Positions 45,780 through 61,743 of a stretch of DNA of 64,000 nucleotides are shown here, one piece after another. Location of the stretch: NCBI RefSeq assembly GCF_002251795.1, contig NZ_NOXU01000017.1:1-64000 (forward strand), written 5' to 3'. A model generated the notes under the pieces. The model did not search any database, was not told the DNA's origin, and was given only the letters and a program-made list of their open reading frames with translations. Position numbers and translations under genes: made by a program. Position 1 is the stretch's first letter; each line of letters opens with the position of its first letter. Origin of the DNA: Niveispirillum lacus (GTDB lineage Bacteria > Pseudomonadota > Alphaproteobacteria > Azospirillales > Azospirillaceae).

Positions 45780-45800
45780 ATATAGACCCTAACGGGACAA

Positions 45801-45932
45801 ATGCCCGCCATGGCCCTCTACGGATATGCCCGCGCCTCCACCCCGGACCAGGATGTGACCCTCCAGGTGGAAACCCTAACCCGGGCCGGCTGTGCCGTGG
45901 TGCGGGCCGAAAAGGCCAGCGGGGCGGGAAGG
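45801..45932 (+). pseudogene. Truncated serine recombinase (resolvase) N-terminus
   Basis: The first 40 codons match the start of resolvases: LYGYARASTPDQDVTLQVET, with catalytic Ser after YAR, then LTRAGCAVVRAEKASGA. The intact recombinase at 61141 reads almost the same up to DKASGA. Similarity stops abruptly near 45930 and runs into unrelated sequence, so only about a fifth of the gene remains. The breakpoint is followed within about 25 bases by the sugar-transferase remnant. Confidence 0.78.
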
Positions 45933-45952
45933 GGTGCAGGCGCGGTTGCAGA

Positions 45953-46171
45953 CGGGCGGTCGCCAACAAGCTCTGCGTCGTACAGCGCTTCGACCTGAAT
46001 TCGTGGTATGGGAATAATGGGCCCCTCTGGCTGGACATCACGATCCTGCTGCGGACCATTCCGACCGTGATCAGTCGCGACGGGGCCTACCGACGGGACG
46101 ATGGCCGGCACGACGCCTCGGCAAGCCAGATCGCGGCCGGATCGATGCTGTTCCAGGCGTATCTTTGGTGA
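45953..46171 (+). pseudogene. 3' remnant of a sugar transferase (WcaJ/bacterial sugar transferase family)
   Basis: In this frame the DNA encodes VANKLCVVQRFDLNSWYGNN followed by GPLWLDITILLRTIPTVI and SRDGAY, then a short tail to the TGA at 46169-46171. This is the C-terminal pattern of initiating sugar transferases (compare the KNWSLWQDIAILAKTVLVV end of the protein at 35445). The start and catalytic region are missing. The ATP-grasp gene that starts 4 bases later belongs to a family named for association with these transferases, so this was probably its partner gene. Confidence 0.68.
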
Positions 46172-46174
46172 ACA

Positions 46175-47347
46175 ATGGTGGTCAGAAGCCTGCGTACCTT
46201 TCCCCTACCCGCCGATGGCTGGGGGCTGCTGCCGCCCCGTGACCCGGTGATCACCGCCTTGCATCGGGCCGCGGGCCGGTCGTTCTGGAAGCGACGCCGC
46301 CCCCTGCCGCCCTGGGCAGGCGGGTTGGCCGCAAAGGCTGCCCTTGCCCTGTTGCTCCCGTCCAGGATCAGGAGACTGCGCCGGCCTTGGGGCCTGACCC
46401 TAGCCGAATCGGCCCGGATCTGGGCGGATTGTTTCCTGTATGGCCTTACCCCCTATGAAGCTTGCCTGTATCGGCGGGAATGCGGCCGCATTCCCCGGGA
46501 CTTCGTCTCCGACCGGGTTGCCATCATGCTTCAAGGGGCGCTCGGCAACATGGCGCAGAAGGATCTGCTGGCCGACAAGGTCCGCTTCGCCGACCGTCTG
46601 GCACAGGCGGGTCTGGCCGTTGTTCCCACCCTTCTTGTTCTGGCAGGCCCGGATGACATCCCATCCCTGACCGCCCTTCCACCGGGGCGCTACTTCCTGA
46701 AGCCGGTGGCCGGCTTCGCGGGATCGGGGGCGAGACCGTTGATCATCCCGGATGCGGGCGGGCTGCTGATACAGGGGGGGATCCCGATCACCCGGGCGGA
46801 CCTGTTGACGGGGTTGACCGCGGAACTGAAGCACCACAGCCTCATGGTCCAGCCGATGCTGGAGGCGGCACCCGATCTGCCGGTGGATCGGCATGCGGCC
46901 GGCATTCCGCCGGTCCTCCGCGTCACCACAAGCCGCCGGCCCGGTGGCCCGGCCGAAATCCACGGCATCCATGCAGCGACCGCGCCGGACGGGATGAGTT
47001 TCCGCTGGCCGCGATGGCGGCGGTACCCGATTGATCCGGCAACAGCTTCCCTCGGGCCGCCGGTGATCGTGACGGAGACGACGAGGATACCGTGCGTGTG
47101 GCCTTGGGCCGGTCCAGCCTGGCCCGGACTGGACCGGGTCATCCAGCTGGCCCTTGACGCCGCCGATCACGTTCCGGACATTCCCCTGGTGGGCTGGGAT
47201 ATCGTTCCGACACCGGCAGGACCGGTGATCCTTGAGGGCAATGTGCATATCGGGGCCTGTTGGGCGGATCTGTCCTACTGGCTGGTCGGACGCCCGTCGC
47301 CGATGGCCGGGGTTCTGCATGCCTGGCTGGAGAGGTATCCTCTGTGA
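46175..47347 (+). CDS. Sugar-transferase-associated ATP-grasp protein
   Basis: The 390-residue protein resembles the ATPgrasp_ST family (PF14397-like). It has MAQKDLLADKVRFADRLAQA, a lysine in YFLKPVAGFAGSGARPLI for ATP binding, and PLVGWDIVPTPAGPVILEGN near residue 350, the metal-binding Glu-x-Asn motif of ATP-grasp ligases. It would join a carboxylate to an amine or thiol. It lies directly after the remnant of a sugar transferase and overlaps the ABC exporter gene by GTGA, tying it to the peptide-export unit. The substrate is unknown. Confidence 0.8.
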   Translation: MVVRSLRTFPLPADGWGLLPPRDPVITALHRAAGRSFWKRRRPLPPWAGGLAAKAALALLLPSRIRRLRRPWGLTLAESARIWADCFLYGLTPYEACLYRRECGRIPRDFVSDRVAIMLQGALGNMAQKDLLADKVRFADRLAQAGLAVVPTLLVLAGPDDIPSLTALPPGRYFLKPVAGFAGSGARPLIIPDAGGLLIQGGIPITRADLLTGLTAELKHHSLMVQPMLEAAPDLPVDRHAAGIPPVLRVTTSRRPGGPAEIHGIHAATAPDGMSFRWPRWRRYPIDPATASLGPPVIVTETTRIPCVWPWAGPAWPGLDRVIQLALDAADHVPDIPLVGWDIVPTPAGPVILEGNVHIGACWADLSYWLVGRPSPMAGVLHAWLERYPL

Positions 47348-49095
47348 CACCGGGACGGCAGGCTCGCGGCTTCATCGCCGATCTGGCGGCGACCGGCCGT
47401 GCCAGGCTGGCCCTGCTGGTGCTGCTGGGTGTGGCGGCGGCGGTTGCGGAAGGGGCCGGGCTTCTGCTGCTGGTCCCCTTGCTGGAGATGCTGGGGCTGA
47501 CCGGGGCCGAGACGGGGCCGCTGGCGGTCCTGGGCGGGCGGCTGGGGCTGCCCGGCGTGCTGGCCATGTTCGTGGGTCTGCTCGCCGTGTCCGCAGCGAT
47601 TGTCTGGGCCCGAACGGTGGCGGCCCAATCCTATCAGCTTGCCTATGCCGATCGCCTGAAACAGCGGCTGCACGGGGCGTTGATCGGGATCGCCTGGCCG
47701 GGCGTGGCGGCGCGCCGCCAGTCCGATTTCATGATCACCATCTCCGGCGAGGCCTCGCGCTGCGCCTATGCGGCGGACCAGTTCCTGCAGATGACGGCGG
47801 CCCTGCTGCAGATGCCGGCCTTGCTGCTGGCGGGGCTGATCCTGTCGCCGGTGTTCACCCTGGTCACGCTGGCACTGTGCGGGCTTGTGGCCCTGCTCCT
47901 CCGCCCGCTCAGCCGGCAGGCGCACAGCCTGGGTGCGGCCCTGGCGGAGGCGCACCGGACCTTCCATGCGGAACTGACCGACCAGGTGTCCGGCCTGCGG
48001 ATCATCAAGATGACCGGGGCGGAAGGCGCCAAGACCGCGCGGTTCCGGGATCTGTCACAGCAGGTCCGCTCGCAACACCTTGCCATGGTCCAGGCGGACG
48101 CGACGGCCCGGGCGGTACAGCGGATTGCCGCCGCGGCGGTGGCGGCCCTGTGTGTCCTGGTGGGCATCGGCCCCTTGGGCCTGTCCCTGGCAGAGATGCT
48201 GGTGCTTCTGGCTGTCTTTGCGCGGATCGTTTCGGCCACGCTGCGGATCCAGGGCCATTGGCGCATGATCCTGCAGCTGTTGCCGGCCCATGCCCAGGTG
48301 ATGGCATCGCTTGAGCAATGGCGGGCGGAGGCTGAACCCCGGCCGGCCGGGGAAGCGCCCACCCTGCGGCATCGGATCGACCTGCGCGGTGTCGGCTATC
48401 GCCACGGGCGGGATGGGACCGCGCGAGCGGCCCTTGTCGCGGTCGATGCCGTCATTCCCGCCCTGGCGACCACGGCCGTCATCGGGCCGTCCGGGGCGGG
48501 CAAATCAACCCTGGCCGATATCGTCATGGGTCTGGTCCCCCCGGATACCGGCATGGTGATGGTGGACACGATACCCCTGACCGACGGGGCGATGGTCGCC
48601 TGGCGGCGGCGGGTGGGATATGTGCCGCAGGATCCGTTCCTGTTCCACACCGGCATCCGGGAGAACCTGCTGATGGCAGCCCCGACGGCGACCGAGGCGG
48701 AGCTGTGGGACGCGCTGGAGGCTGCGGCCGTCGCCGGCCGGGTGCGGTCCCTGCCGGACGGGTTGGATACGGTGGTTGGCGATCGGGGGGCGCGGCTGTC
48801 GGGGGGGGAGCGTCAGCGGATCGCCCTGGCCAGGGCGCTTTTGGGACGGCCGGACCTGCTGGTGCTGGATGAGGCCACATCTGCCCTGGACGCGGAGACG
48901 GAGCGCGCGGTGGCGGAGGCCCTGGACCGGTTGAAGGGCCGGACCACCCTGCTGGTGGTGGCGCACCGGCCCAGCACGGTGCAGGGTGCCGACCATGTGC
49001 TGGTGCTGGATGAGGGCCGCCTTGTCGCCCAGGGAAGCTGGGAGATCCTGCGGCGGAATGCGGCCCCCTGGCTTGCGCGCCTGGACATGGGATGA
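47344..49095 (+). CDS. ABC exporter, fused permease and ATPase (lasso peptide D-type candidate)
   Basis: This 583-residue half-transporter has six membrane segments (about residues 20-310), then an ATPase: Walker A VIGPSGAGKSTLADIVMG, Q-loop GYVPQDPFLFH, signature RLSGGERQRIALARALL, Walker B LLVLDEATSALDAETE and the H-loop VVAHRPSTV. There is no N-terminal C39 peptidase, as expected when leader removal is done by a separate enzyme. GTG 47344 overlaps the ATP-grasp stop. With the B2 protein at 49189 it suggests maturation and export of a peptide. Confidence 0.9.
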   Translation: MTPGRQARGFIADLAATGRARLALLVLLGVAAAVAEGAGLLLLVPLLEMLGLTGAETGPLAVLGGRLGLPGVLAMFVGLLAVSAAIVWARTVAAQSYQLAYADRLKQRLHGALIGIAWPGVAARRQSDFMITISGEASRCAYAADQFLQMTAALLQMPALLLAGLILSPVFTLVTLALCGLVALLLRPLSRQAHSLGAALAEAHRTFHAELTDQVSGLRIIKMTGAEGAKTARFRDLSQQVRSQHLAMVQADATARAVQRIAAAAVAALCVLVGIGPLGLSLAEMLVLLAVFARIVSATLRIQGHWRMILQLLPAHAQVMASLEQWRAEAEPRPAGEAPTLRHRIDLRGVGYRHGRDGTARAALVAVDAVIPALATTAVIGPSGAGKSTLADIVMGLVPPDTGMVMVDTIPLTDGAMVAWRRRVGYVPQDPFLFHTGIRENLLMAAPTATEAELWDALEAAAVAGRVRSLPDGLDTVVGDRGARLSGGERQRIALARALLGRPDLLVLDEATSALDAETERAVAEALDRLKGRTTLLVVAHRPSTVQGADHVLVLDEGRLVAQGSWEILRRNAAPWLARLDMG

Positions 49096-49188
49096 CCGGC
49101 CTCGCCCGCCTTTGCCGTCACAAGCCTTTTCCCGGTCATCGCCCGCACTGATATACAGAAGCACCCTTCTCCCGTTGGTTTCCCAGCC

Positions 49189-49608
49189 ATGCCGACCTTC
49201 CGCTTGCCCCGGCCGATCATGATCGAATCCGCTGCGGCCCTGCTTCTGGCGCGGCTTGCGCTGCTGCTTGTGCCTGCCCGACGGCTGCTGCGGGGGGCCA
49301 GGTCGGGGGCCTGGGCGGGGCAGGCGGGCCTGCCGCAGGATCAGGACATCGCCGATGTGGCCCGGGCGTTGGAGCGGGCGGCGCGGCGCGTGCCGTTCAC
49401 CTGCACCTGCCTGGTCAGGGCCATGGCGGGGCGGGCCATGCTGCGCCGGCGCGGCATTCCCTGCACCCTGCATCTGGGGGTGGCCCGGCAGAACGGGGCG
49501 CTGGCGGCCCATGCCTGGCTGGAGGCGGGCGGCGGTGTCGTGACCGGGGGGGATGAGGCGCCGAACTTCGTCCCCCTGGTCCGGCTTGGCGATGGCGGAT
49601 GTCTCTAG
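49189..49608 (+). CDS. Lasso peptide biosynthesis B2 (transglutaminase-like leader protease)
   Basis: The 139-residue protein matches the B2 half of split lasso-peptide proteases: the Cys-His-Asp set appears as FTCTCLVRAMAGRAMLRRRG (Cys near residue 70), GALAAHAWLEAGG (His near 107) and a following acidic position. B2 cleaves the leader peptide, usually with a separate PqqD-like B1/RRE protein; one is present at 60200. It starts at ATG 49189 (ATG 49219 possible). It converges with the cyclase gene 30 bases away. Confidence 0.85.
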   Translation: MPTFRLPRPIMIESAAALLLARLALLLVPARRLLRGARSGAWAGQAGLPQDQDIADVARALERAARRVPFTCTCLVRAMAGRAMLRRRGIPCTLHLGVARQNGALAAHAWLEAGGGVVTGGDEAPNFVPLVRLGDGGCL

Positions 49609-49638
49609 CCAAACCTGGGGGGCCCGGTTCGGCTGGGG

Positions 49639-51543
49639 TCAGCGGTTGGCGCCTTCGGCCCAGCGGATGAACATGCCGGTGGTCACGCCCCGACCCAGGA
49701 CATGATACAGCTCCGTGTATCGCCGCTCCGCCGCGTCGGCATCCGCGGGCCAGTCATCCAGGATGGCGCGCAGGCGCGGAATGTCGATCATCTCCCGTGC
49801 CAGGGGGGAATCCTCCATCCCGTCGATGGTCGCGGCGATCCAATCGCGGCTTCGGCTCAGCCAGTCGAAGAATTCCGCATTCTGCCGGCCGCGCCGGGTT
49901 TCCTTGACAATCGCCGGCGGCAGCCGGTCGGCCAGGACCCGGCGGCCCAGGAACCGGTCTTGCCGACCGCGCGTGAACTGGTCGGGCGGCAGGGCGAAGC
50001 AGAATTCGGCCATCCGCACATCCCCCAGCGGGTCCCGCCCCTCCACGCCCCGGCGGAAGCGCAAGGCACTTTCCACCGATCTCCGTGTCCAGGTAAGTTC
50101 CAGAAGGTGCAGACGCTCCCGCACCGGCCAGGGAACATCCGTGTCGCCGGCGCGGTTCGCGGCCGCCCAATCATCCAGCCCGAGCTGACGCCGCGCCGTC
50201 GCCAGAAGGGGTGACGGCGCCGCCCAGGCGGGAAGGCGTCCGGTCATCGCCCGATACCGGTCCAGCAGCCATTCCGGGGCCTGGGACCGCGCCACGGCCT
50301 TGAACCGGCCCAGCCCCCACCCGACGCGGTAGAATTGCCAGGCCTCGCGAAGGGCGGCAGGCAGATCGGTCGGCCGCGGCTGGAAAACCCAATCGCCCAC
50401 AGCACTGGCGGTCAGGGTCAGGTTGCCGGACAGCCCCTTCAACACCGTGGTGGCGCCCAGTTGCCGTGTTGTCGGCCAAGCCGCCTGGAACCACACGGCA
50501 GCCAGCAGGTGGAACGGTGGTCGGCCGATCAGCGCCATGTTGCCGCGCAGCATATCCTCCAGCCCATCCAGCCGGGCCAGGAGGGCCTGCGGCTGGACCA
50601 TGGGGTACAGGGCTGCCACCGCCTGGGCCTGGGGCCATTCGTCCTGGAACACATTGGGGCTGGGCCGCGGCAGGGACGCGGTCGGGTCGGGGCGGATGGT
50701 CAGGGTATGGATCGGCCTGTTACCCGAAACGCGGGCCGCCGTGGCCACCACGGCCCCGGAATCCAGACCACCGGACAGATCGGCGACGATCTGCCCATCG
50801 CGCGGGAGGGCATCTTGCACGACCCGGTCCAGAAGGTCCCGGGCGGCATCCACATAATCCTGGTCACGGCGGAAGCGGATGCGCCGTGTCGTGTCCAGCC
50901 GCCAGTACCGGCGCAGATCAACGCCGTCGGGGGACCAGGTCAGGCAGTATCCAGGTAGAAGCCGATAGATCCCCTTGAAACACGTCTCATCGGCGGTTTG
51001 GGATACCGACAGGGTGCACAGGGCGACCTGTTCGGGATCCACCTGGCGCGGCAGGTCGGGATCGGCAAAAAGGACGGGTAACAGGCTGCTGAAGCGCAGC
51101 CATCCGCCTGTCCGGTGGTAGAAGAGTGTGCGCCCGCCGGTCCGATCGCTTACCAGCCGCAGCCGGCGGGTGGAGCTATCCCACCAGGCGAAAATGAACT
51201 GTCCGTGCAGCCGGGCAAGGGCATCCTCCCCCCACCGTTCCAAAGCCGCCAGGATCAATCGGGCGTCGGGTGTGCCGATCTCCGGCATGCCCAGCATGGC
51301 GGCAAGATCGCGGCGGTCCGCCAGCCAGCCATCCAGGGCCAGGAGATGGGGGCCGGAAACGGCATAGCCCCCCATCCAGTCACCCTGGGGGGCAATGCAT
51401 GACAGGTACAGGATGCCGTCTGCCAGCGGCTCAACCGTCCCGCCCGGCACATACTGGGCCGCCAGAAGACTACATCGATGCAGGACGTCCGAAAAACCGG
51501 GGCCCGGCGCACCCCCGGCGTGACCGAACAAGGCCGCCATCAT
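49639..51543 (-). CDS. Asparagine-synthase-like lasso cyclase (C protein)
   Basis: The 634-residue protein has an N-terminal glutaminase-like domain (about 1-200) whose start lacks the catalytic Cys2 of true AsnB. The synthetase domain has the ATP PP-loop VADLSGGLDSGAVVATAARV near residue 255. In lasso clusters this enzyme adenylates an Asp or Glu side chain and closes the ring on the core N-terminus. ATG 51543 or 51540 is likely; TTG 51546 is less so. It lies 42 bases after a short precursor-like gene on the same strand, and the two are probably cotranscribed. Confidence 0.86.
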   Translation of the reverse strand: MMAALFGHAGGAPGPGFSDVLHRCSLLAAQYVPGGTVEPLADGILYLSCIAPQGDWMGGYAVSGPHLLALDGWLADRRDLAAMLGMPEIGTPDARLILAALERWGEDALARLHGQFIFAWWDSSTRRLRLVSDRTGGRTLFYHRTGGWLRFSSLLPVLFADPDLPRQVDPEQVALCTLSVSQTADETCFKGIYRLLPGYCLTWSPDGVDLRRYWRLDTTRRIRFRRDQDYVDAARDLLDRVVQDALPRDGQIVADLSGGLDSGAVVATAARVSGNRPIHTLTIRPDPTASLPRPSPNVFQDEWPQAQAVAALYPMVQPQALLARLDGLEDMLRGNMALIGRPPFHLLAAVWFQAAWPTTRQLGATTVLKGLSGNLTLTASAVGDWVFQPRPTDLPAALREAWQFYRVGWGLGRFKAVARSQAPEWLLDRYRAMTGRLPAWAAPSPLLATARRQLGLDDWAAANRAGDTDVPWPVRERLHLLELTWTRRSVESALRFRRGVEGRDPLGDVRMAEFCFALPPDQFTRGRQDRFLGRRVLADRLPPAIVKETRRGRQNAEFFDWLSRSRDWIAATIDGMEDSPLAREMIDIPRLRAILDDWPADADAAERRYTELYHVLGRGVTTGMFIRWAEGANR

Positions 51544-51585
51544 CAATCCGCGCAGATCGGATGTGCCGGTGACGCAAGCACCCGA

Positions 51586-51744
51586 TCAGCTTCCAGCCTT
51601 AAAAGCTGGGTGTTCGTCCTGAGGACCGCTGCCACCATTCATGGTTGCGGACAGCGGGAGCACCGTCAGCCGGGGGGCCTGCCAGACGTCGCGCGTCCCT
51701 GCACCATCCCGCATCGACGTCTCAAGATCATCCCGATCATGCAT
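51586..51744 (-). CDS. Putative lasso peptide precursor (A gene)
   Basis: A 52-residue frame starts at ATG 51744 with GGAG 9 bases upstream and ends at TGA 51588-51586. The leader contains WQAPRLTVLPLSATM, matching the Y/W-xx-P-x-L motif that binds the RRE and the Thr two residues before the cleavage site in lasso precursors. The predicted core is NGGSGPQDEHPAFKAGS, with Asp8 or Glu9 as ring acceptor and a C-terminal Ser. If cleavage is one residue later, Gly1 pairs with Asp7 or Glu8. It sits just upstream of the cyclase. Asn at position 1 would be unusual. Confidence 0.72.
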   Translation of the reverse strand: MHDRDDLETSMRDGAGTRDVWQAPRLTVLPLSATMNGGSGPQDEHPAFKAGS

Positions 51745-52217
51745 GGCATATAACTCCGCGCCATTTTAAACTTGGCCCTAACTTAAGGGACCAGAGCCCG
51801 CGGTTCAAGGACAACACAGCCCTACGCCGCCTGACACTTCCGGCCCGCACCCAGGCGCTTGCCATCCGACAGATCCCAGCGCGATCCAACCATGAACCGC
51901 ATCGCGCTTCCGTCAGCGGATGACCATGCTTGCGGTCCATCGCCCGACTGCCCACGGCGAAGCGCTGCGACCGCGAAAGCGCCTAAGCGGCTAGACGCAA
52001 GGATGCACACCGCGCAGGCACAATCTCTACTACTTTTGCCTGATTATTCTGAGGCTGCGATCTAAAAAAGCCTTAGATCGCATAGATTTCTGTCAACCAT
52101 AAAAAGTGTCTGATAAAAAATAAAGCAACTTTACGGCTATCAACGGATGCCGTCATATGCCCTATGCCCGGACGAGGGGTGGGATGGCCCTGTCGTGGAT
52201 CGCGAACGGAGGAGCTT
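51745..52217. other. Intergenic region before the tail-collar genes
   Basis: This region separates the minus-strand precursor/cyclase unit from the plus-strand collar genes and should hold both promoters. Short frames on either strand here have no ribosome sites or recognisable content. It turns A/T-rich at 52030-52135. The dyad at 52057-52081 is the only clear structure. Confidence 0.5.
52057..52081. promoter_or_regulatory. Perfect 9-base dyad upstream of the collar operon
   Basis: GCGATCTAA and TTAGATCGC flank the 7-base loop AAAAGCC. No T-run follows, so an operator or an RNA element in the leader of the operon at 52218 is more likely than a terminator. It lies 137 bases before the first start codon. 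Confidence 0.5.
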
Positions 52218-52793
52218 ATGACGGATTCCTTTATCGGAGAGATCGCGCTCTTCGCCTTCAACAACACACCAACTGGATGGTTGCCCTGTGAGGGGCAGCC
52301 GCTACAGGTCCAGCAGAACACCGCGCTTTACGCCCTGCTGGGATCTATTTATGGTGGTAATGGATCTACAATCTTCAACCTACCAGATCTTCGCGGGCGT
52401 ACGGCTGTCAATTTCGGGCTGATGACGGACACGACCCGCATTCTGCCCCAAGGTCAAACGCTGACCCAGGGCAGCAGGGGCGGGACGGAGACGGTCACGC
52501 TGTCGCTGACCCAGGTGCCGGGCCACACTCATGGCTTCGTGTTTTCCCCCACCAACGCGAATCTCTCGCAGGCCATCGTGAATGCGGTTCCCGGGCCCAT
52601 CCAGCGGGCCTCCGCGACACCAACGACAGCCCCCAACCCGTCCCCGGCCTATGCGCCACCTGGTGCCTTGACGCCGCTCAACAACGACTCCATGACGTCG
52701 GTCGGCGGCAATCAGGCCCATGAGAACCGTCAGCCCTTTCTGGCCCTACAGTACTGCATCTGCACCGTAGGCATATTCCCGATGCGGAACTGA
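52218..52793 (+). CDS. Tail-collar domain protein 1 (MdpB-like)
   Basis: The 191-residue protein begins FIGEIALFAFNNTPTGWLPC, then LQVQQNTALYALLGSIYGGN and FNLPDLRGRTAVN, the exact order of the phage tail collar domain (PF07484). The variable middle is Gly/Thr/Pro-rich, and it ends NRQPFLALQYCICTVGIFP, the conserved C-terminal block. GGAGGAG precedes ATG 52218. Such free-standing collar proteins (microcystin-dependent protein type) occur outside phages. There is no signal peptide. It is the first of three tandem paralogues. Confidence 0.85.
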   Translation: MTDSFIGEIALFAFNNTPTGWLPCEGQPLQVQQNTALYALLGSIYGGNGSTIFNLPDLRGRTAVNFGLMTDTTRILPQGQTLTQGSRGGTETVTLSLTQVPGHTHGFVFSPTNANLSQAIVNAVPGPIQRASATPTTAPNPSPAYAPPGALTPLNNDSMTSVGGNQAHENRQPFLALQYCICTVGIFPMRN

Positions 52794-52840
52794 ACAGACA
52801 GTAACGGATACAGACACTGTCAAAGCCAGGAGGATGAGAC

Positions 52841-53392
52841 ATGGCAAATTCTTATGTGGGTCAAATCACCCTGTTCGGGGGGACCTTCGCTCCCCACAAT
52901 TGGAAGTTCTGCGACGGCAGCCTGCTTCAAATCAACCAGTATCAGCCGCTGTTTGCCCTGATCGGCACCACCTATGGGGGTGATGGCAGCTCCACGTTCG
53001 CCTTGCCCAATCTTCGTGGGCGTATTCCGGTCGGCCGGTCCAACACCCCCCCGCCGGGTATGACGAACAACTATGTCATGGGTGCCCCGGGTGGTGTGAC
53101 CGACGTGGCGATCACCCTGGCCCAGTATCCCAACCATCGCCATACGGTGAATGTGACGACGGCGCTCGGCACGTCGCTGACGCCCGGACCCTCGATGCTT
53201 CCAGCCTCGGTTCCGTCCAACTTCCAGTTCTATGTGACGCCGAATGCCGGTGCCAATCTGACGGAAGTCAGCCTGAACCCAAGTGCGATCACCGCATCTG
53301 CGGGCGGCGGCGGTAGCCACACCAACCTGATGCCGACGATCAATCTGAACTACATCATCTGCGTCGAAGGCATCTTTCCAAGCTTCAACTGA
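52841..53392 (+). CDS. Tail-collar domain protein 2
   Basis: This 183-residue paralogue has YVGQITLFGGTFAPHNWKFC, LFALIGTTYGGDGSSTFALP with NLRGRIPVG, and the ending LNYIICVEGIFPSFN. A very strong ribosome site, AGGAGG, lies before the ATG. Its central region, between the two conserved blocks, differs fully from collar 1 and 3, suggesting different binding specificities or partners. It is separated by 47 and 24 bases from its neighbours, one operon. Confidence 0.85.
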   Translation: MANSYVGQITLFGGTFAPHNWKFCDGSLLQINQYQPLFALIGTTYGGDGSSTFALPNLRGRIPVGRSNTPPPGMTNNYVMGAPGGVTDVAITLAQYPNHRHTVNVTTALGTSLTPGPSMLPASVPSNFQFYVTPNAGANLTEVSLNPSAITASAGGGGSHTNLMPTINLNYIICVEGIFPSFN

Positions 53393-53416
53393 TGCTGACG
53401 CAAAAGGAGACAAGCG

Positions 53417-53992
53417 ATGGCTGATCCATTCATCGGGGAAATTCGCGCTTTTGCGTTCCAGTACACGCCGCAGGGATGGCTTGCCTGCGACGGTCATTCC
53501 TATTTCGTCTCCCAGTACCAGGCGCTGGCTGTCGTTCTTCAGAACCGGTTCGGCGGTGATGGGACGCGCTTCAATGTTCCCGACCTGCGCGGGCGCGCCA
53601 CGACCAATGCGCTCGGAACCGGCCCCTGGCAGGCCGGGGGCGCGGCGACCCAGCAGTTTGCCAGCACCTGGGGCGTCAGCGAGGTCACCCTGAACAACAG
53701 CCAGGTCCCGTCCCATACCCATCAGGCGTTCGGCGTGGGCGCCCTGACCAATGCGACCGCCGTTTCCACGGCATCGGCGACATCGTACCTGTCCGTTCTC
53801 CGGTCGGGGAACTCTGTTTACGACGCCTGGTCGATTGATTCCGTCAGTACCGCCAACCACTTCGCCGCTTCGATGATCAGTGTGCAGGGCGGGGGGCCGA
53901 ATGGTGTTGTGGGTGCCCATGCCAACATTTCTCCCTTCCTTGCCCTCCGTTTCTGTATCGCTGCCGATGGCGTCTTCCCCCCCCAGAACTGA
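53417..53992 (+). CDS. Tail-collar domain protein 3
   Basis: The 191-residue third paralogue has FIGEIRAFAFQYTPQGWLAC, YQALAVVLQNRFGGDGTRFN and VPDLRGRATTN, and ends SPFLALRFCIAADGVFPPQN. AAAGGAG precedes ATG 53417. Its last 26 bases overlap the GNAT start at 53967. No other phage structural, lysis or packaging genes are nearby, so this is not a prophage fragment in any obvious sense. Confidence 0.85.
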   Translation: MADPFIGEIRAFAFQYTPQGWLACDGHSYFVSQYQALAVVLQNRFGGDGTRFNVPDLRGRATTNALGTGPWQAGGAATQQFASTWGVSEVTLNNSQVPSHTHQAFGVGALTNATAVSTASATSYLSVLRSGNSVYDAWSIDSVSTANHFAASMISVQGGGPNGVVGAHANISPFLALRFCIAADGVFPPQN

Positions 53993-54530
53993 TGGACCGG
54001 TGGATGGAAGCGGCGGCCCCGGCACGCCGCTTCCCCCCGTGCCGCCCGATCTGGCTGCCCGGGGAATAGGCCTGCGTCCGGAATGCGACGACGATGCCGC
54101 ATTCCAGCGCGACCTTTACATCCTGGGCCGCTGGCAGGAGATGGCGGCGACCGGCTGGCCGGAACAGATGATCATCGCCTTCCTGGCCCAGCAATCCGAC
54201 TTCCAGCAGCGGCATTACCGTGCCTGCTACGGCCACGCCGCCTGGGGGGTGATCACCAAGGATGGGTTGCCGGGCGGCCGGCTTTACCTGAACCACGGCG
54301 ACCAGGAAATCCGGATCATCGACATCCTTCTGCACCCGGGGCTGCAGGGTCAGGGGGTGGGCAGCGGCATCATCCGCGCCGTGTTCGATCAGGCACGCGC
54401 CCTTGGCCTGCCTGTGTCCCTGGCTGTGGAAGACCACAACCACGGGGCCCGCCGCCTGTACGATCGGCTGGGTTTCATCTCCACGGCCCTGCACGGCATC
54501 CACCACACGCTGGTCTGGACACCGGACTGA
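53967..54530 (+). CDS. GNAT-family acetyltransferase
   Basis: The 187-residue enzyme transfers an acetyl group from acetyl-CoA. The acetyl-CoA loop is in IIDILLHPGLQGQGVGSGII (QxxGxG), and the domain ends with VEDHNHGARRLYDRLGFI, the usual motif B. The first 30 residues are Pro/Gly-rich and disordered-looking. ATG 53967 overlaps collar 3 by 26 bases; frames starting after its stop are not in phase. It is translationally coupled to the collar genes, so collar proteins or the peptide may be the acetylation target. Confidence 0.8.
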   Translation: MASSPPRTDGPVDGSGGPGTPLPPVPPDLAARGIGLRPECDDDAAFQRDLYILGRWQEMAATGWPEQMIIAFLAQQSDFQQRHYRACYGHAAWGVITKDGLPGGRLYLNHGDQEIRIIDILLHPGLQGQGVGSGIIRAVFDQARALGLPVSLAVEDHNHGARRLYDRLGFISTALHGIHHTLVWTPD

Positions 54531-54561
54531 CGGCCGCGATCCCTGCGCGTCATGCACAACT

Positions 54562-54590
54562 CCCGATCTGGCCGATCGGGGGTTTGTGTT
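54562..54590 (+). terminator. Rho-independent terminator after the collar/GNAT operon
   Basis: The perfect stem CCCGATC/GATCGGG around TGGCC is followed by GGTTTGTGTTTG. It lies 32 bases after the GNAT stop and just before the convergent gene at 54602. Confidence 0.65.
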
Positions 54591-54601
54591 TGTGCGGACG
54601 G

Positions 54602-54898
54602 TCAACCGATTCCCAGCGAATAGATGTATGTATCCGTCACCACGTCATGCTCGATCGGACCCACGCCAAGGTCCAGCGCACCGAAGGACGCATGCTCCAC
54701 CCGATAGCACGACTGCGGAAACACGACGCCCGGCGGTCCGCGCATGATGATGTAGAAGACCGGTTTGAACGGCGGCGGCATCGGGACCTGCCGCTCCCGC
54801 ACATACACCCGCTCCACCGTCAACGGAAACGGCCCGGCCGGTGTGACCACGGTCAGAACCTCCCCCTCCAGGGGTTTCGCCTGTTCAAATGTCAGCAT
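54602..54898 (-). CDS. DUF6916-like small protein
   Basis: The 98-residue, mostly beta-rich protein has MLTFEQAKPLEGEVLTVVTP at its start, then PVFYIIMRGPPGVVFPQSCY and RVEHASFGALDLGVGPI. Its pattern resembles the small DUF6916 family often encoded beside collar-domain proteins. GGGAG precedes ATG 54898. It is the last gene of a minus-strand operon after the sulfotransferase and HPr-kinase-like genes. A structural partner of the collar proteins is possible; the function is unknown. Confidence 0.65.
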   Translation of the reverse strand: MLTFEQAKPLEGEVLTVVTPAGPFPLTVERVYVRERQVPMPPPFKPVFYIIMRGPPGVVFPQSCYRVEHASFGALDLGVGPIEHDVVTDTYIYSLGIG

Positions 54899-54933
54899 CG
54901 TCGCCTTCTCCCTTCCTGACGAACGGGCCGCGA

Positions 54934-55788
54934 TCACAGATAGCCCATCCGTGACATCACAGCGCCATGGTCACGCTCGATCCGTGCCACCTGGTCCCTG
55001 GTCAGCTCATCCCGCCAGGCGCCGGCCACGCCGCGGCGGAAGAACGCCTGGCCGGCAACCTGGCCATTGAAGAATCCACGCTCCGCCTCCCCCTGCCGCA
55101 GGACATCGAACCGGGTAGCTGCGACCGTGGCGGTGATCACCGCGTCCGATGCCGCGATACGCAGGTGCGCGGCCACCTGGGCCAGGCAGCCGGCGGGGTC
55201 GTCCCGCATATCCTCATAGCGCAGTACCAGGGGTGTCGGCGTGGCGGCCAGCCAGCTTTCCACATGCCCGCTCCAGGTCGACAGATGCTGGGGGAACGCC
55301 GCCCCGATGCCGCCCGGCCGGATCGCCCAGGTGTTTGCCGGATCGCCCAATGCCAGGATGGCCGCATCCACCGGGATGCCGGTGTGATGGGCGTAGGAGA
55401 CGGCCACATCGCGCGGATCACGCACCATGTACAAACTGGCCAGGGTCGCCTCGGGCGGGAACAGCGCCCGGCCGGAGGGCGTGTACTCCCACGCTTCATG
55501 CACCCGGCGATACAGGGTTGCCTCTGCCTCCCGGGCCAGTTCGACCGCGGCGAGGGCACGCAAATCGGCGCATTCCGCCATCGTGAAGTCGCTGGATTCA
55601 AGATCCAGGGCGCGTTCCACCTCCGCCCTGTCCGCGGCGAAGGGCGCGAAGGCAAGGGGGCGGGCGAAGTCATGCCGGGCGCCACCGGCCAGCAGACCGG
55701 CCAAGGCCAGCCGCATCCAGGTGTTCCCCGATTTGGGGTAGGAGGCGATCCAGCAGAATCCGCCGCCCCTGAGCCGCATGGTGGTCAC
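54934..55788 (-). CDS. Sulfotransferase (Sulfotransfer_1)
   Basis: The 284-residue PAPS-dependent enzyme has the 5'-phosphosulfate loop WIASYPKSGNTWMRLALAGL (about residues 13-32) and the 3'-phosphate block LYMVRDPRDVAVSYAHH (about 118-134), both complete. The C-terminal GQVAGQAFFRRGVAGAWRDEL matches the RKG-type motif in degenerate form. It overlaps the HPr-kinase-like gene by four bases. In this setting it could sulfate the peptide, the collar proteins or a glycan. Confidence 0.87.
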   Translation of the reverse strand: MTTMRLRGGGFCWIASYPKSGNTWMRLALAGLLAGGARHDFARPLAFAPFAADRAEVERALDLESSDFTMAECADLRALAAVELAREAEATLYRRVHEAWEYTPSGRALFPPEATLASLYMVRDPRDVAVSYAHHTGIPVDAAILALGDPANTWAIRPGGIGAAFPQHLSTWSGHVESWLAATPTPLVLRYEDMRDDPAGCLAQVAAHLRIAASDAVITATVAATRFDVLRQGEAERGFFNGQVAGQAFFRRGVAGAWRDELTRDQVARIERDHGAVMSRMGYL

Positions 55789-56750
55789 GCCCCCGCATCC
55801 GCCAGGGCAGCCAGCAGGGCGTCCAACTCCGCCTCATCCCCCAGTCGGCAATGGGCATAGGCCCCACCCAAAGCCGACATCAACCGGGGGATCGCCGCCA
55901 TCCGCTCCGCCTTCAGGCCAAGGCGAACCATCATCTGGGGGCGGTACAGCATATCCCCGCTCCGCTCCAGTGTTTCCATCAGCGTCAAGCGCCGCAGACC
56001 GGGCCGGGTCGCCCCGCGACCTTCCAGAAAGACCATGGCCTTCAGACGCGCAGGCTGCCCTTGGAATGCCTCGCCCACGGGAAGGTGGAACTTGTCCAGC
56101 GTCGGCCGCGCCCGCTCCAGCCCCTCCGCCGGCAGGCCCAGCCGATCCATCGCGTCCTGCCACAGCTTCAGCCGCGGGAAGGCCGGCAGCACCAAGGGGC
56201 CGCCGGGTGCTGAAAGATCCAGCATGGTCACATCGTCCGCCAGCAGCGGATAACCGCGCAGCACCAGCCGCGCCGCCAGCGTGGACTTGCCGATCCCCGA
56301 CGGACCGGCGAAAGCCACCGCCCCGCCCGCGAACCGAAGGCAGGCGGCATGGACCGGCAGCAGCCCACGCCGCAATCCGACAATGGCGAAGACACTGCCG
56401 TACAGGAAGGTGCGCTGGCTGGCGCCGGCCGGATCCTCGACCGGATCGACCGTGATCCGGCTCCCATCGGGTGCGACACGCCACGCGGCCACGCCCGGCA
56501 CCTGGAACCGGCTGGTACCATCGGCGGCGACCTGAAGGAAGGGGCGGTCCACGACCGGATCGGCCAGGGGCGGCACGGGCCCCACATCCACCCAGACATC
56601 CACAGTCCGGCCATCCCCCGTCCAGGGCGGCAGATCCGCCAAGGGGAACGTGGACGCGATCCGCAGCCCATAGATGCACCGGTCGCCCGGGTGGCCGGAC
56701 GGGGCGACGGATCCGGGATCGGGGGAAGCCATGGGAATAAGCGCACTCAT
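55785..56750 (-). CDS. HPr serine kinase-like protein (RiPP tailoring kinase candidate)
   Basis: The 321-residue protein has an N-terminal beta-rich domain and a C-terminal kinase with P-loop VAFAGPSGIGKSTLAARLVL (about residues 160-180), then PLLADDVTMLDLS, where the acidic pair follows the HprK pattern. HprK-like kinases in lasso clusters such as paeninodin phosphorylate the C-terminal Ser of the peptide. The precursor-like peptide at 51586 ends in Ser. ATG 56750 is used. It starts the minus-strand operon with the sulfotransferase and DUF6916-like genes. Confidence 0.82.
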   Translation of the reverse strand: MSALIPMASPDPGSVAPSGHPGDRCIYGLRIASTFPLADLPPWTGDGRTVDVWVDVGPVPPLADPVVDRPFLQVAADGTSRFQVPGVAAWRVAPDGSRITVDPVEDPAGASQRTFLYGSVFAIVGLRRGLLPVHAACLRFAGGAVAFAGPSGIGKSTLAARLVLRGYPLLADDVTMLDLSAPGGPLVLPAFPRLKLWQDAMDRLGLPAEGLERARPTLDKFHLPVGEAFQGQPARLKAMVFLEGRGATRPGLRRLTLMETLERSGDMLYRPQMMVRLGLKAERMAAIPRLMSALGGAYAHCRLGDEAELDALLAALADAGA

Positions 56751-56891
56751 CCAACAGATACCATCGGGCGGGGGACGCCGGGATACTCGCGCGACACCGA
56801 CCCCTTTGCAAGGAAACATGGCCACTCTGTCCAATGCAGCGGATTAAGGGTATAGGAACTATGACCATCGACCCGCAGCACAGGGCCACGC

Positions 56892-58697
56892 ATGCTCCCT
56901 ACCCTCCAAACCGCCCGATCCCTGCTCATGGACGGCCAAGACGAGGCCGCCTTGGACATGCTGGAGAGCTTGGCCCGAAGCGGGGCGGCCACGCCGGACG
57001 CGCTTTTCCTGCTGGGGGCGCAATTGCGACAGGCCGGCCGCACGGCGGAGGCCATTCCGTTTCTGGAGCAGGTCTTCCGGGAACGCCCGGACATGACGAA
57101 CAGCCTGGCGGAACTGGGCTATTGCCTGGCCGAGGTCGGCCGCAAGGAGGAAGCCCTGGAGGTCCTGCGGGAGGTGGTGCGCCGGGTCCCCGGGCATTCC
57201 TGCAGTCAGCGCCTGGGCCAGCTTCTCGCGGGCAAAGGCATATACCTGGTCGACAAGGGCGATGACCTGCAGGGTGTCCCGCTTCTGCAGGAAGCGATGG
57301 CGGCCCTCGGCCCCTCTCCCGATCTCGCCGCCGCGCTGGCCATGGGGCGGCATCGCCTGGGCGACAATCACGGCGCGTTGTCGCTGTTGCAGGACGCGTT
57401 GAGCCTTTGGCCAGATCACCCGGCCTGCCTGGTCAACCTCTCATCGGTGCTCGATTCGTTGAGCCGGCATGTGGAGGCGGAGGCCGCGTGCCGGCGGGTG
57501 CTGGATCATCTCGTTCCCGACCTGCCTCAGGCGCACTGCAATCTGGGTGCCGCCCTGCGCGGCCAGGGGCGCCTGGAGGAAGCGGAGGCGGCGTTCCGTC
57601 GGGCCCACGAACTGGACCCGACCCTGGTTCCGGTTCTCGCCAATCTGGGGACGGTGATGTCTTCCCTCGGCCGGCTAGAGGACAGTGCGGTCTGGTACCG
57701 GAAAGCCATCGACCTTGCGCCTGACGACATGGTGCTGACGTTCCTGATCGCCTGCGACCGGTTGAAGGCCGGGGATTGGGCGGAAGGCTGGGCCCGGTAT
57801 GAGCTGAGGAACAGGCACCCCGCCAACAAGGTGAACTGGACGCTCAGCAAGGACCTGCCCCGGTGGGAGGGGGGTGATCCGGCGGGCCTTCGTATCCTTC
57901 TGGAGGAGGAGCAGGGCTATGGTGACCGGCTCCAGTTCTTCCGCTTTGCCCGCCTCCTGGCCGACCGGGGCGCCACGGTGGGCATCGCGACCCTGCCCGG
58001 GCTGCACCGTCTGTTCCGCCAAAGCGATCCCCGTATCCTGCTGGTCGACCGCGACACCGCACCATCGGCGGCGGACTGGGATTTCGGCATGCCGCTGATG
58101 TCCCTGCCCCACCGGTTCGGCACACGGGTCGACACGGTCCCGGGGGCACCGTATCTGACCGCCGAACCCGGCCAGGCCGCCGCCTGGGCGGAGCGGCTTG
58201 CGGGGTTGACCGGATTGCGGGTGGGGCTGGTATGGGCCGGGGATTCCCGCCCCCACGACCCGAGCGCGAACGGTATCGACCGCCGCCGCAGCATGTCGCT
58301 GGCCCAGTTCGCCCCGCTCGCGGCGATCCCGGGCGTTCACCTGATCAGCCTCCAGAAGGGGGAGCCCGCGGCGCAGGTCGCCGACGCGCCCTTCCCGCTC
58401 CTGGACTGGACCGGCGAGCTGGACGATTTCGCGGATACCGCCGCCCTGGCCGTGAACCTGGACATGGTCGTCTCGGTCGACACGGCACCCGCCCATCTGG
58501 CGGCGGCCCTCGGCGTGCCGGTCCTGCTGCTGTCCCGCTTCGATGGCTGCTGGCGGTGGCTGCACGGTCGGGATGACACCCCCTGGTACCCGACGATGCG
58601 CCTTTTCCGACAGCAGAGCTGGGGCGACTGGTCGGCCCCGCTGGCTGGCGTGACCGCGGCCGTGGCCGCGGCTGCCGACGCCAAGTCCCGGGCGTGA
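56892..58697 (+). CDS. TPR protein with GT9-like glycosyltransferase domain
   Basis: The 601-residue protein has about eight TPR units in residues 1-290 (for example DLPQAHCNLGAALRGQGRLE and PVLANLGTVMSSLGRLEDSA). The C-terminal half looks like heptosyltransferase-type GT-B enzymes: ILLEEEQGYGDRLQFFRFAR, GLVWAGDSRPHDPSANGIDR, and VVSVDTAPAHLAAALGVPVL. This TPR-GT9 architecture is frequent in alphaproteobacteria and may glycosylate proteins. It starts at ATG 56892, divergent from the kinase gene, and overlaps the oxygenase gene by GTGA. Confidence 0.84.
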   Translation: MLPTLQTARSLLMDGQDEAALDMLESLARSGAATPDALFLLGAQLRQAGRTAEAIPFLEQVFRERPDMTNSLAELGYCLAEVGRKEEALEVLREVVRRVPGHSCSQRLGQLLAGKGIYLVDKGDDLQGVPLLQEAMAALGPSPDLAAALAMGRHRLGDNHGALSLLQDALSLWPDHPACLVNLSSVLDSLSRHVEAEAACRRVLDHLVPDLPQAHCNLGAALRGQGRLEEAEAAFRRAHELDPTLVPVLANLGTVMSSLGRLEDSAVWYRKAIDLAPDDMVLTFLIACDRLKAGDWAEGWARYELRNRHPANKVNWTLSKDLPRWEGGDPAGLRILLEEEQGYGDRLQFFRFARLLADRGATVGIATLPGLHRLFRQSDPRILLVDRDTAPSAADWDFGMPLMSLPHRFGTRVDTVPGAPYLTAEPGQAAAWAERLAGLTGLRVGLVWAGDSRPHDPSANGIDRRRSMSLAQFAPLAAIPGVHLISLQKGEPAAQVADAPFPLLDWTGELDDFADTAALAVNLDMVVSVDTAPAHLAAALGVPVLLLSRFDGCWRWLHGRDDTPWYPTMRLFRQQSWGDWSAPLAGVTAAVAAAADAKSRA

Positions 58698-59515
58698 CCC
58701 CTTCCCCCGGATCCGGTATCCAGCCCATGCGATCCCTGTTGACGGGTGTCCGTCCGGACATGATCCGGACCGACCCCTTCCCCCACATCGTCATCCACGA
58801 TGCCCTGGATGCGGAAGACTATGCGGCCCTGTGCGCCGGGTACCCCTCGCTCGGGGCGATCATCGGCACCGACCACGCCCGGTTCCGGAGCAACCGCCGC
58901 TATGCGATGATGGCGACATGGGTCCTGGCATCGCCCGATCTGCCCGCGTGCTGGCATCGCTTCGTCCGGACCCACACCACCCCGGCCTTCCTGGCCGAGG
59001 TGGAGGCGCTGTTCGACGGATACTGGCCGCCGGCCCTGCTGTCGACGCTCGGGGGCCGGCTGTCGGGACACATGACGGAACTGTTGCAACTCGGCGATGG
59101 GAGTAAGGCACGGATCCAGATGGATGCCCGGCTGGAGGTGAACACACCGGTGCTGGACGTACCGTCCAGGTCCCGCGGGCCCCATCTGGATACACCGAAC
59201 CGGCTTTACTCCGGCCTGTTCTATCTGCGCCACCCGGACGATGATTCGGTCGGGGGCGACTTGGAACTGTTCCGCTGGCGCGAAGGGGCGACCCGACGGA
59301 CCGATGTCGTCGCCCTGCCCGACGACGCGGTGGAGAGGGTGGCCACAATCCCGTACCGCCCCAACACCCTGGTCATGTTCCCCCAGGGTATCGACGCCCT
59401 GCACGGGGTCGGTATCCGCCAGCCGACCCCCCATGTCCGCCGTTATGTCTTCATCACGGCGGAGATCACCGAGAACTGGCTGGTTCCCCCCGATCGTCGG
59501 AGTGAGGTTCCGTGA
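58694..59515 (+). CDS. 2-oxoglutarate/Fe(II)-dependent oxygenase
   Basis: The 273-residue enzyme has a jelly-roll iron site: HLDTP in RGPHLDTPNRLYSGLFYLRH (HxD, about residue 160) and the distal His in FPQGIDALHGVGIRQ, followed by an Arg in VRRYVF for 2-oxoglutarate. Relatives hydroxylate protein or small-molecule side chains. It overlaps both neighbours by four bases (GTGA), so it is translated with the TPR-glycosyltransferase and the next gene. It may hydroxylate a residue that is then glycosylated or sulfated. Confidence 0.78.
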   Translation: MTPSPGSGIQPMRSLLTGVRPDMIRTDPFPHIVIHDALDAEDYAALCAGYPSLGAIIGTDHARFRSNRRYAMMATWVLASPDLPACWHRFVRTHTTPAFLAEVEALFDGYWPPALLSTLGGRLSGHMTELLQLGDGSKARIQMDARLEVNTPVLDVPSRSRGPHLDTPNRLYSGLFYLRHPDDDSVGGDLELFRWREGATRRTDVVALPDDAVERVATIPYRPNTLVMFPQGIDALHGVGIRQPTPHVRRYVFITAEITENWLVPPDRRSEVP

Positions 59516-60216
59516 GACTTCTGGTCCATGGCATGCAGAGCAGCGGCGCCACCGCCTTCACCCAGATGCTGGCCCAACGTCCGGGATGCGTGGCGCTGGT
59601 GGACATTCCGAACAATTTCGCCGCACCCAGGGTGACCACGCGCCTGGACTTCGTCGCCAAGGCGGTGGTGACCACCGCCTATCCGTTGGCCACCCATGTC
59701 GAACGGTTCCGGCCCGATGCGGTGATCCTGTTCCTGCGGGATCCGCGTGTGAACCATGTCAGCCTGCGCACCAAGGATTATCGGCACCGCTCCGGGCTGA
59801 TGGAGGAGAAGTTCCTGATCCTCGATCAGCTTTTCGCCGAGCGGCATCGTTTTGACGCTGTGGTCCATTACGAGGATTTCGTTCTGGGCGATCCATCGGT
59901 CGGCAAGGCCCTGGCCGATCTCGGCTGGCCGGTGGAGGATGGCTACCGGGAGTTCCGGCGTTCCTATGACGAGCTTCTGGCCTCCCTGTGGGCGGCGGAA
60001 CCCGATCTGCGCGATCGGATGGATGTCGTCTTCGGCAACGCCAAGGGGCGGGCTGTATCACAGGCCCCGATCAAAAAGGATTGGGACAGGGCGGTGGAGG
60101 CGGCGGTGGCGCATCTGTGCCCCCGGCTTCTTGCCCATTATCAACAGCGGGACGCAGCCGCGGCTGAACCTGCCCCCAAGGCGCCCGCGGCAGGAGCGGT
60201 CACCGCTCCACCGTGA
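59512..60216 (+). CDS. Sulfotransferase-like P-loop protein
   Basis: The 234-residue protein begins RLLVHGMQSSGATAFTQMLA, a PAPS-type P-loop. AVILFLRDPRVNHVSLRTKD (about residues 68-87) is the 3'-phosphate region. It is shorter and more divergent than the sulfotransferase at 54934. It ends with an Ala/Pro-rich tail that overlaps the convergent PqqD-like gene by 17 bases. It is the last gene of the three-gene plus-strand operon. Sulfation of a hydroxylated or glycosylated target is possible but unproven. Confidence 0.7.
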   Translation: MRLLVHGMQSSGATAFTQMLAQRPGCVALVDIPNNFAAPRVTTRLDFVAKAVVTTAYPLATHVERFRPDAVILFLRDPRVNHVSLRTKDYRHRSGLMEEKFLILDQLFAERHRFDAVVHYEDFVLGDPSVGKALADLGWPVEDGYREFRRSYDELLASLWAAEPDLRDRMDVVFGNAKGRAVSQAPIKKDWDRAVEAAVAHLCPRLLAHYQQRDAAAAEPAPKAPAAGAVTAPP

Positions 60217-60478
60217 TCAGATTGCGTGCCTGAAGATCGGCCAGCAGGGCCAGCACGTCACGTTCGATCATGGCCAGGGGAGCGTCAAACTCTGTCTCCA
60301 GGGTCCGGCACAGGGCGGCAACCTCCACCGGATCGGCCAGCGCCTTCCATATGCGGGTACCGATGACATCCAGAGTAAAATACTGCCCGCTCTCCACATC
60401 CATCATCACAGTTTCCCCATCGATCTCTGTCGACAGAAGGTCAGACCGGGCACGGATATGGGAGGACAAAGTGGGCAT
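60200..60478 (-). CDS. PqqD-family RRE protein (lasso B1 candidate)
   Basis: The 92-residue protein has the PqqD fold pattern: LLSTEIDGETVMMDVESGQY, FTLDVIGTRIWKAL, then helices ending LLADLQARNLI. These winged-helix RiPP recognition elements bind the leader peptide and present it to B2 and cyclase. It is 10.6 kb from the B2 gene, a rather scattered arrangement, yet no other RRE is visible. ATG 60478 is used; TTG 60529 is an upstream option. Its substrate would be the leader motif at 51586-51744. Confidence 0.82.
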   Translation of the reverse strand: MPTLSSHIRARSDLLSTEIDGETVMMDVESGQYFTLDVIGTRIWKALADPVEVAALCRTLETEFDAPLAMIERDVLALLADLQARNLITVER

Positions 60479-61061
60479 GGAACGGCAACCAATCTTTGTA
60501 AAAAGGCAATTTGAACCATACCTAATCAAGACGTATCTGTCTGTCCATGTACGACTGCTATGATTGCCGCCTTCGCCTCCTCATTGACAGCTACTCGCCG
60601 CCTGCTGTCATTGTGGCCAACCGGGTCCTGGAGCTGGCGGGCGGACAGGTGGATGATGTCATAACAGCGGCATGGTCCGCCGTCGCGCAAGTTGACGCGG
60701 AGACTCATGGTCAAGAATTTTGCCCTTGAGTATCAATCCAGGTCAGCCAGGGGGTCCACCCCGGCGACGCTGGCCATGAAGCGGAACCAGCCGGCGTCCT
60801 TTTCAAGGGCGGCCACGGGATCGGCATAGGAACATTTCCATGTTCAAGTTAAAGCCGGCGATGATGCCTAGAACGTCAGGGGGGCTTCTGTACCATGGCC
60901 ATGGTGAGAGCACTCGACAGGACGACAACCCGCCCAGCCATAACCCATAACTGCATCGCAGAATGGCATCACCCTCGATGTGTATGACTGGATACATCGG
61001 CAGGTGCGTCAATCTCAGCTCAGTGGCCGTTAAACGATCCTTTGGCGGTCACCTCTCGAAC
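60479..61061. other. Gene-poor stretch with a short C-terminal gene remnant
   Basis: There is no complete gene here. On the minus strand, 60733-60828 encodes YADPVAALEKDAGWFRFMAS then VAGVDPLADLD and a stop. This reads like the end of a real protein but has no start and is preceded by stops. Other short frames (for example 60547-60729) lack ribosome sites. It marks the worn boundary between the peptide island and the mobile elements. Confidence 0.45.
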
Positions 61062-61136: not shown

Positions 61137-61140
61137 GGCA

Positions 61141-61713: not shown

Positions 61714-61743
61714 TAATCGCCGTTCGCCCTATGTTCGCGCGAA

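Follow-up and report, generated by a model that had tools for sequence, protein, structure and literature searches.

Lasso peptide clusters in which a homologue of HPr kinase and a precursor with a C-terminal Ser accompany the core lasso genes have been described for paeninodin (PadeK), ThcoK, SyanK of Sphingobium and pseudomycoidin (PsmK), according to the portions of the sources consulted (PMC9266682, PMC8498205). In the same portions, the paeninodin kinase acts on the linear precursor, and what phosphorylation does for lasso peptides is said to be unresolved (PMC9266682). Sulfotransferase genes are recorded there in some Firmicutes lasso clusters (PMC8498205), and in the consulted part of another report in some clusters of anaerobes (PMC4289311), without an assigned role. 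Metanodin was the one lasso peptide with Asn as residue 1 found in the literature searched; the excerpt consulted reports that its Asn1 was shown by mass spectrometry and that the amounts were too low for isolation (PMC12670498).

We analyzed a 64,000-nucleotide stretch of Niveispirillum lacus (contig NZ_NOXU01000017.1, positions 1 to 64,000; hereafter the window), for which an earlier note had proposed a 52-residue lasso precursor on the minus strand, ahead of an asparagine-synthase-like cyclase. The frame was found as proposed (Table 1) and reads MHDRDDLETSMRDGAGTRDVWQAPRLTVLPLSATMNGGSGPQDEHPAFKAGS before a TGA stop, with predicted cleavage after Met35, a predicted core NGGSGPQDEHPAFKAGS and a predicted Asn1-Asp8 ring. 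Its leader carries W-xx-P-x-L with Thr at -2 of the core, and the core has Asp8, Glu9 and a C-terminal Ser, all as claimed from the sequence, and contains no cysteine. The claimed gap of 42 bases to the cyclase was also correct when counted from ATG 51543, and becomes 39 or 45 bases with the neighbouring TTG or ATG; the ATG at 51543 or 51540 is the more likely cyclase start. The ribosome site of the earlier note is present as GGAG but lends weak support, because the pattern was no commoner than chance in the window (10 observed versus 14 expected).

A chance open reading frame, with the true precursor elsewhere, would agree with the shortness of the frame and with a ribosome site no better than chance. 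However, the position and motif of the frame recur in relatives at 47–51% cyclase identity, and no rival W-motif frame was found between kb 44 and kb 64 of the window: the one other frame with the W motif and Thr in register between 44,001 and 64,000 lacked both a terminal Ser and any acid within core residues 1–10. Conservation of the frame in related clusters and a competing short gene with a better motif were the two points on which the earlier note had staked its reading; the frame was conserved, and no such gene was present in 44,001–64,000. We therefore regard a chance frame as extremely improbable. The 52-codon frame is genuine and very likely a lasso precursor. Matching frames in relatives, together with an island that contains B1, B2 and C, make a lasso precursor next to its cyclase the preferred interpretation. 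A hairpin in the RNA at the end of the precursor was considered separately and rejected (z -0.61 in the window and -1.15 to 1.16 in five relatives).

Table 1. Positions of the lasso genes and their neighbours in the window, with the matches or features by which each was recognized.
Feature	Position	Strand	Evidence or remark
ATP-grasp protein (PF14397)	46175..47347	+	directly before exporter; possible extra tailoring enzyme
ABC exporter (D)	about 47344..49095	+	PF00005, PF00664 over cut-off; GTG start 47344 chosen
Leader peptidase (B2), transglutaminase-like	49189..49608	+	NF033537 E 6.1e-27, over cut-off
Lasso cyclase (C), asparagine-synthase-like	49639..51546	-	PF00733 and PF13537 over cut-off
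Lasso precursor gene (A)	51586..51744	-	52 codons, ATG to TGA; predicted
Possible ribosome site GGAG	51754..51757	-	9 bases before precursor ATG; weak
Tail-collar protein M1	52218..52793	+	PF07484 E 1.7e-24
Tail-collar protein M2, T4 gp12-head-like	52841..53392	+	PF07484 E 7.2e-27
Tail-collar protein M3	53417..53992	+	PF07484 E 1.9e-20
GNAT acetyltransferase	53991..54530	+	last gene of M1-M2-M3-GNAT block
DUF6916 protein	54602..54937	-	beta-rich model, mean pLDDT 83.5
Sulfotransferase (PF00685)	54934..55788	-	start overlaps kinase end; homologues in 15/31 loci including window
HPr-kinase-like protein, predicted C-terminal Ser kinase	55785..56834	-	His, GxxGxGKS, Asp-Asp present
TPR protein, C-terminal glycosyltransferase-9 match	56892..58697	+	PF01075 24.8 bits, cut-off 22; accessory
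2OG-Fe(II) oxygenase-like protein	58694..59515	+	below cut-off; accessory
Second sulfotransferase-like protein	59512..60216	+	below cut-off; accessory
PqqD-type RRE (B1)	60200..60529	-	PF05402 E 8.7e-18, over cut-off

Profile matches placed the B2 protease, the ABC exporter and the PqqD-type RRE in the same island, as the earlier note had stated. With the dedicated lasso models, the cyclase scored 154.7 bits against NF033535 (cut-off 525) and the PqqD protein 62.6 bits against NF033536 (cut-off 80), both below the cut-off. One B2 match and one PF05402 match were found in the genome, both in the window, which therefore appears to hold the genome's B1-B2-C set, with the PqqD gene about 8.5 kb from the precursor. 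Set against the criteria for class II lasso clusters, the locus has a precursor adjoining the cyclase, B2 and an RRE in the cluster, the leader motif, an acid at core 7–9 and a Cys-free core. Among the 31 cyclase loci of the family, the window's included and some on cut contigs, 28 contained a kinase homologue, 26 PqqD, 20 B2 and 15 a sulfotransferase.

In a NCBIfam search at E <= 1, the sole match of the precursor was the paeninodin family NF033524 (E 6.6e-4, 19.4 bits versus a cut-off of 27), so that by its curated cut-off the precursor is not a member of that family. At E <= 0.01, 44 of 45 collected precursor-like frames matched no NCBIfam family; this set had been chosen for an acid at core 7–10 and was kept out of the acid-position statistic given below. 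Precursors of the kinase type may thus often go unannotated.

A peptide-only search of the genome contigs confirmed no relative, and relatives came via the cyclase. Cyclase relatives at E <= 1e-40 occurred in 23 of the 82 genomes of the family, from which stretches of up to 20 kb were taken around 30 cyclase places besides that of the window (L035 and L041, both among the 30, look like halves of one cluster). Further stretches comprised 18 chosen by tail-collar matches, among the matches listed, and at least 39 loci from a genome-wide cyclase scan, in which the nearest, among the matches listed, were those of Azospirillum sp. B4, Nitrospirillum iridis, Azospirillum sp. B506 and an alphaproteobacterial MAG. 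A plasmid search for the cyclase at E <= 1e-30 gave 2 records.

Candidate precursors were collected by a rule blind to the core (a short frame in which W-xx-P-x-[LIVMFAY] is accompanied by Thr at P+10 to P+12). In the 369 kb of fetched loci that lie near cyclases, duplicates included, this rule yielded 53 distinct frames, with several obvious non-precursors left in. A terminal Ser was present in 43 of them, and Asp or Glu at core 8 or 9 in 39, versus 10.5 (sd 2.8) when each core was shuffled. Far from cyclases (1,172 kb), 52 frames were found, of which 8 had a terminal Ser and 9 had Asp or Glu at core 8 or 9; the six with both look like extra precursors. A looser scan found no same-strand upstream candidate for 37 of the 79 cyclase frames, a total that includes duplicates and cut frames; for some of these a candidate lay at a greater distance, downstream or on the opposite strand, some contigs were cut, and the others are unexplained. 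Precursor-like frames with a terminal Ser and an acid at core 8 were also observed, separated from the cyclase by more than 1.5 kb, in L050, L054, L059, L062, L084 and L107, and two such frames preceded one cyclase in L095.

The first core residue had been left as Asn or Gly, depending on cleavage. In the five closest relatives with a visible precursor, among the matches listed, the closest frames read WSRPAFETLQLERTL-NTSTVVSDSTSDSHS (L032), WSRPAFETLQLERTL-NNSSIVSDSTSDSHS (L033), WSRPCFQILPLEQTL-NNSTRVNDSTSDQHS (L034), WSRPGFETLELERTL-NNGEVTADSTADQDPYS (L035) and WAKPEFTVLPLTQTL-NTASRTTDTSPASRS (L082), compared with WQAPRLTVLPLSATM-NGGSGPQDEHPAFKAGS in the window. These five share the pattern T-L-N[N/T]...D8...S-stop, in which the pair Asn-Asn or Asn-Thr starts two positions past Thr and seven ahead of Asp, so that with the window Asn1 occurs in 6/6, among the matches listed. 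L083 is also close (44% cyclase identity), and its contig is cut before the precursor. Among relatives with about 37% cyclase identity the first residue differed (Asn for L084, Gly for L036 and Ile for L038), and over the 53 near-cyclase frames it was Asn in 10, Gly in 10, Ala in 8, Ser in 5 and others in the rest; all 10 Asn1 frames had an acid at 8 or 9. Since the Asn is in no case followed by Gly, and both Thr-x-Asn and an Asp seven positions beyond the Asn are shared by all, an Asn1-Asp8 ring is the most economical assignment.

Cleavage after the Asn would instead give Gly as residue 1, a core GGSGPQDEHPAFKAGS and a Gly1-Asp7 or Gly1-Glu8 ring. Gly is a usual first residue and both ring sizes fall within the allowed 7–9, according to the consulted part of PMC10368454, and Gly1 stood in register in 10 of the 53 related frames. 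On the other hand, this cleavage would move Thr to -3, the position after the Asn holds Asn or Thr and never Gly in the five closest relatives, among the matches listed, and metanodin, as far as its excerpted report goes, demonstrates that Asn1 is usable. We consider Gly1 very improbable, and residue 1 is, judging from the aligned frames, very likely Asn, not Gly. The Asn candidate of the earlier note therefore holds, and the comparison with relatives settles its ambiguity. The note had added that such a residue makes the product hard to assign to a class, and here metanodin speaks against it: with an experimentally determined Asn1 in the part of the report consulted (PMC12670498), Asn1 is rare rather than new.

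Given Asn1, ring closure could fall on Glu9 instead of Asp8, since Glu9 is present and several frames of the wider set (e.g. L036, L038 and L046) have their sole acid at 9. In L032, L033, L034, L035 and L082, however, Asp8 occurs with no acid at 9, and we judge closure on Glu9 unlikely; the more distant L084 has Asp at both 9 and 10. Asp8 is thus the likely ring acceptor.

Absent from the earlier note were the HPr-like kinase and the sulfotransferase, as well as the three tail-collar genes situated among the lasso genes. The kinase-like protein scored below the cut-offs of PF07475 (28.0 bits versus 33.3) and TIGR04352 (37.8 bits versus 200), and its alignment with HPrK 1jb1 was weak (E 0.0063) and spanned the catalytic His, the P-loop and the Asp-Asp pair. 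Compared by eye, the spacing of its H-G-G-G-K-S-D-D residues equals that of BsfK of Bradymonas, given in the consulted part of the source as H148-G163-G166-G168-K169-S170-D186-D187 (PMC10368454). As for the other neighbours, a fold search with the DUF6916 model gave no PDB match at E <= 0.001. The ATP-grasp gene, whose product could be a further tailoring ligase, had no homologue in the 30 other family cyclase loci and a weaker one in L063. The 2OG protein and the second sulfotransferase-like protein occurred together in L041, L049, L062, L063, L064 and L071, which include lasso and lasso-free tail-collar loci. To the left of the lasso island lies a weak resolvase fragment (45801–45998; 20.9 bits, below cut-off), and to its right a full serine resolvase (61135–61713) followed by an IS1595-type transposase (61760–62800); this bracket suggests a mobile origin of the island.

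The A2 profile, built from M1-M3 and their relatives, matched the receptor-binding part of the T4 short tail fibre gp12 (1ocy) with E 7.7e-8. The M2 model also resembled 1ocy in Foldseek, though weakly (prob 1.00 but TM 0.34); because the model was of modest quality (mean pLDDT 71.8, pTM 0.49), the profile match is the better evidence for gp12 likeness. M1-M3 thus share the collar domain and profile similarity with gp12, and a PxHxH motif was invariant in 30 tail-collar sequences. Unlike gp12, they are three separate short bacterial proteins, and a Pfam scan of 21 window proteins turned up no other phage structural gene.

The genes ran M1-M2-M3-GNAT on a single strand in 33/33 loci with three tail-collar matches and a GNAT gene, L043 and L105 being left out because they had three tail-collar matches and no good GNAT. 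A cyclase was present in 24 of these loci, and none in the fetched stretch of the other 9; since the loci were fetched via cyclase or tail-collar matches (the latter among the matches listed), 24 versus 9 is no frequency. Two of the nine, L063 and L077, come from contigs that end close to the block, and kinase, sulfotransferase and PqqD are all seen in L077. For five of the nine, giant frames bearing the motif LEPRMMFDA are found no more than 2 kb away. We therefore rejected a block dedicated to lasso clusters; its role may extend to exported or surface products at large.

A surface module with no tie to the lasso genes beyond a shared island would account for these nine loci, five of them near the giant frames. 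It would also account for the 13 of 31 family cyclase loci with fewer than three tail-collar matches (some contigs cut), the other 18 having three or more. In the genome-wide scan, 11 of the 39 named loci listed had tail-collar matches, or 6 of 32 without seven duplicates, among the matches listed (L082, L087, L100 and L101, the last two with two matches each, L105 of Porphyrobacter and L110 of Sphingomonas). The other 26 of the 32 had none within the available flank, among the matches listed, including kinase-and-sulfotransferase loci of Sphingomonas and Pseudomonas. The divergence of cyclase and tail-collar proteins was correlated over 24 loci (Mantel r 0.71), which shared descent also predicts.

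Three observations speak against this module reading. The GNAT marker occurred in 24 of 27 family genomes with B2 versus 6 of 55 without (Fisher p 3.9e-12, a value that ignores kinship and overstates independence because the genomes are related), and these genome-wide counts are less biased than the 24:9 tally of block loci. Eighteen of 31 GNAT places lay within 10 kb of B2, and the block stays whole, whereas lasso gene order varies among loci. We put the unrelated module at slightly under an even chance. That the tail-collar proteins and the GNAT share the ecological role of the lasso genes is, in our estimate, evenly poised. A functional link between block and cluster is no more than plausible, because some blocks lie where lasso genes are missing and many lasso loci have no block; no report of such a link was found in the literature searched.

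A bolder proposal, which we think rather unlikely, is that M1-M3 assemble into a heterotrimeric particle resembling a tail-fibre head, located at the surface or secreted, which would bind, display or target the phosphorylated lasso peptide or else recognize the same partner cell. The heads of gp12 are trimers, and three paralogues in a fixed order would therefore fit a heterotrimer. If true, this would be a two-part system of a knotted peptide and receptor-binding heads.

The giant LEPRMMFDA frames were observed close to tail-collar genes in the lasso-free loci L065, L066, L067, L068, L069 and L071 (1048 to 2717 aa, some cut; DUF4347 in the one scanned), L066 not being counted as a full tail-collar/GNAT block. 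Very long frames, possibly surface proteins, were also seen in the stretches of two lasso loci, L105 (3–6686; 2228 aa) and L053 (10887–19799; 2971 aa).

Taken together, the product would be a lasso peptide of class II, free of Cys. The leader of its precursor would be bound by the PqqD protein (B1) through W21-xx-P-x-L, and the HPr-like kinase would phosphorylate the C-terminal Ser before cleavage and cyclization. B2 would cut after Met35, leaving Thr34 as residue -2, and the cyclase would join the alpha-amine of Asn1 to the Asp8 side chain, so that the tail EHPAFKAGS would thread a ring of eight residues. A further group may come from the sulfotransferase, and the ABC protein would export the product. 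We infer all of these chemical steps, and their order by analogy with paeninodin. As a whole, the reading of a class II lasso peptide with an Asn1-Asp8 ring and a phosphorylated C-terminal Ser is highly probable. Phosphorylation of the C-terminal Ser, taken by itself, is probable, and the kinase homologues in 28/31 loci together with the terminal Ser in 43/53 frames fit phosphorylation of the paeninodin type; sulfation of this peptide is doubtful.

The locus adds a recurring Asn1 lasso group, found in named Azospirillum and Nitrospirillum strains, and the tail-collar/GNAT block beside many such clusters offers a testable handle on the role of lasso phosphorylation. Metanodin resembles the window precursor in having Asn as the ring-forming residue 1 and Thr at -2; unlike the window, it is gammaproteobacterial (Steroidobacterales-like), has an isopeptidase gene and forms a nine-residue ring, deduced from nine ring-opened forms, and the consulted part of its report mentions no kinase (PMC12670498), whereas the window has the HPr-kinase-like gene. 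Among 16 island proteins, a general Pfam and NCBIfam scan gave no isopeptidase-like match. BsfA/BsfK of Bradymonas, in the portion of the source consulted, is like the window in having a kinase with the H-G-G-G-K-S-D-D residues, there helped by B1. Unlike the predicted window kinase, BsfK phosphorylates core Ser3, and BsfA has Ile at -2; the leader spacing of the window (W-15/P-12/L-10) is two residues shorter than the Tyr-17/Pro-14/Leu-12 given in the same portion (PMC10368454). The modified Ser therefore need not be C-terminal, which calls for caution. The window cluster works like the kinase-tailored, paeninodin-type lasso clusters, and what it has of its own in comparison with them is Asn1, where paeninodin has Ala1, a precursor below the paeninodin cut-off, genes on both strands and a tail-collar/GNAT block among them.
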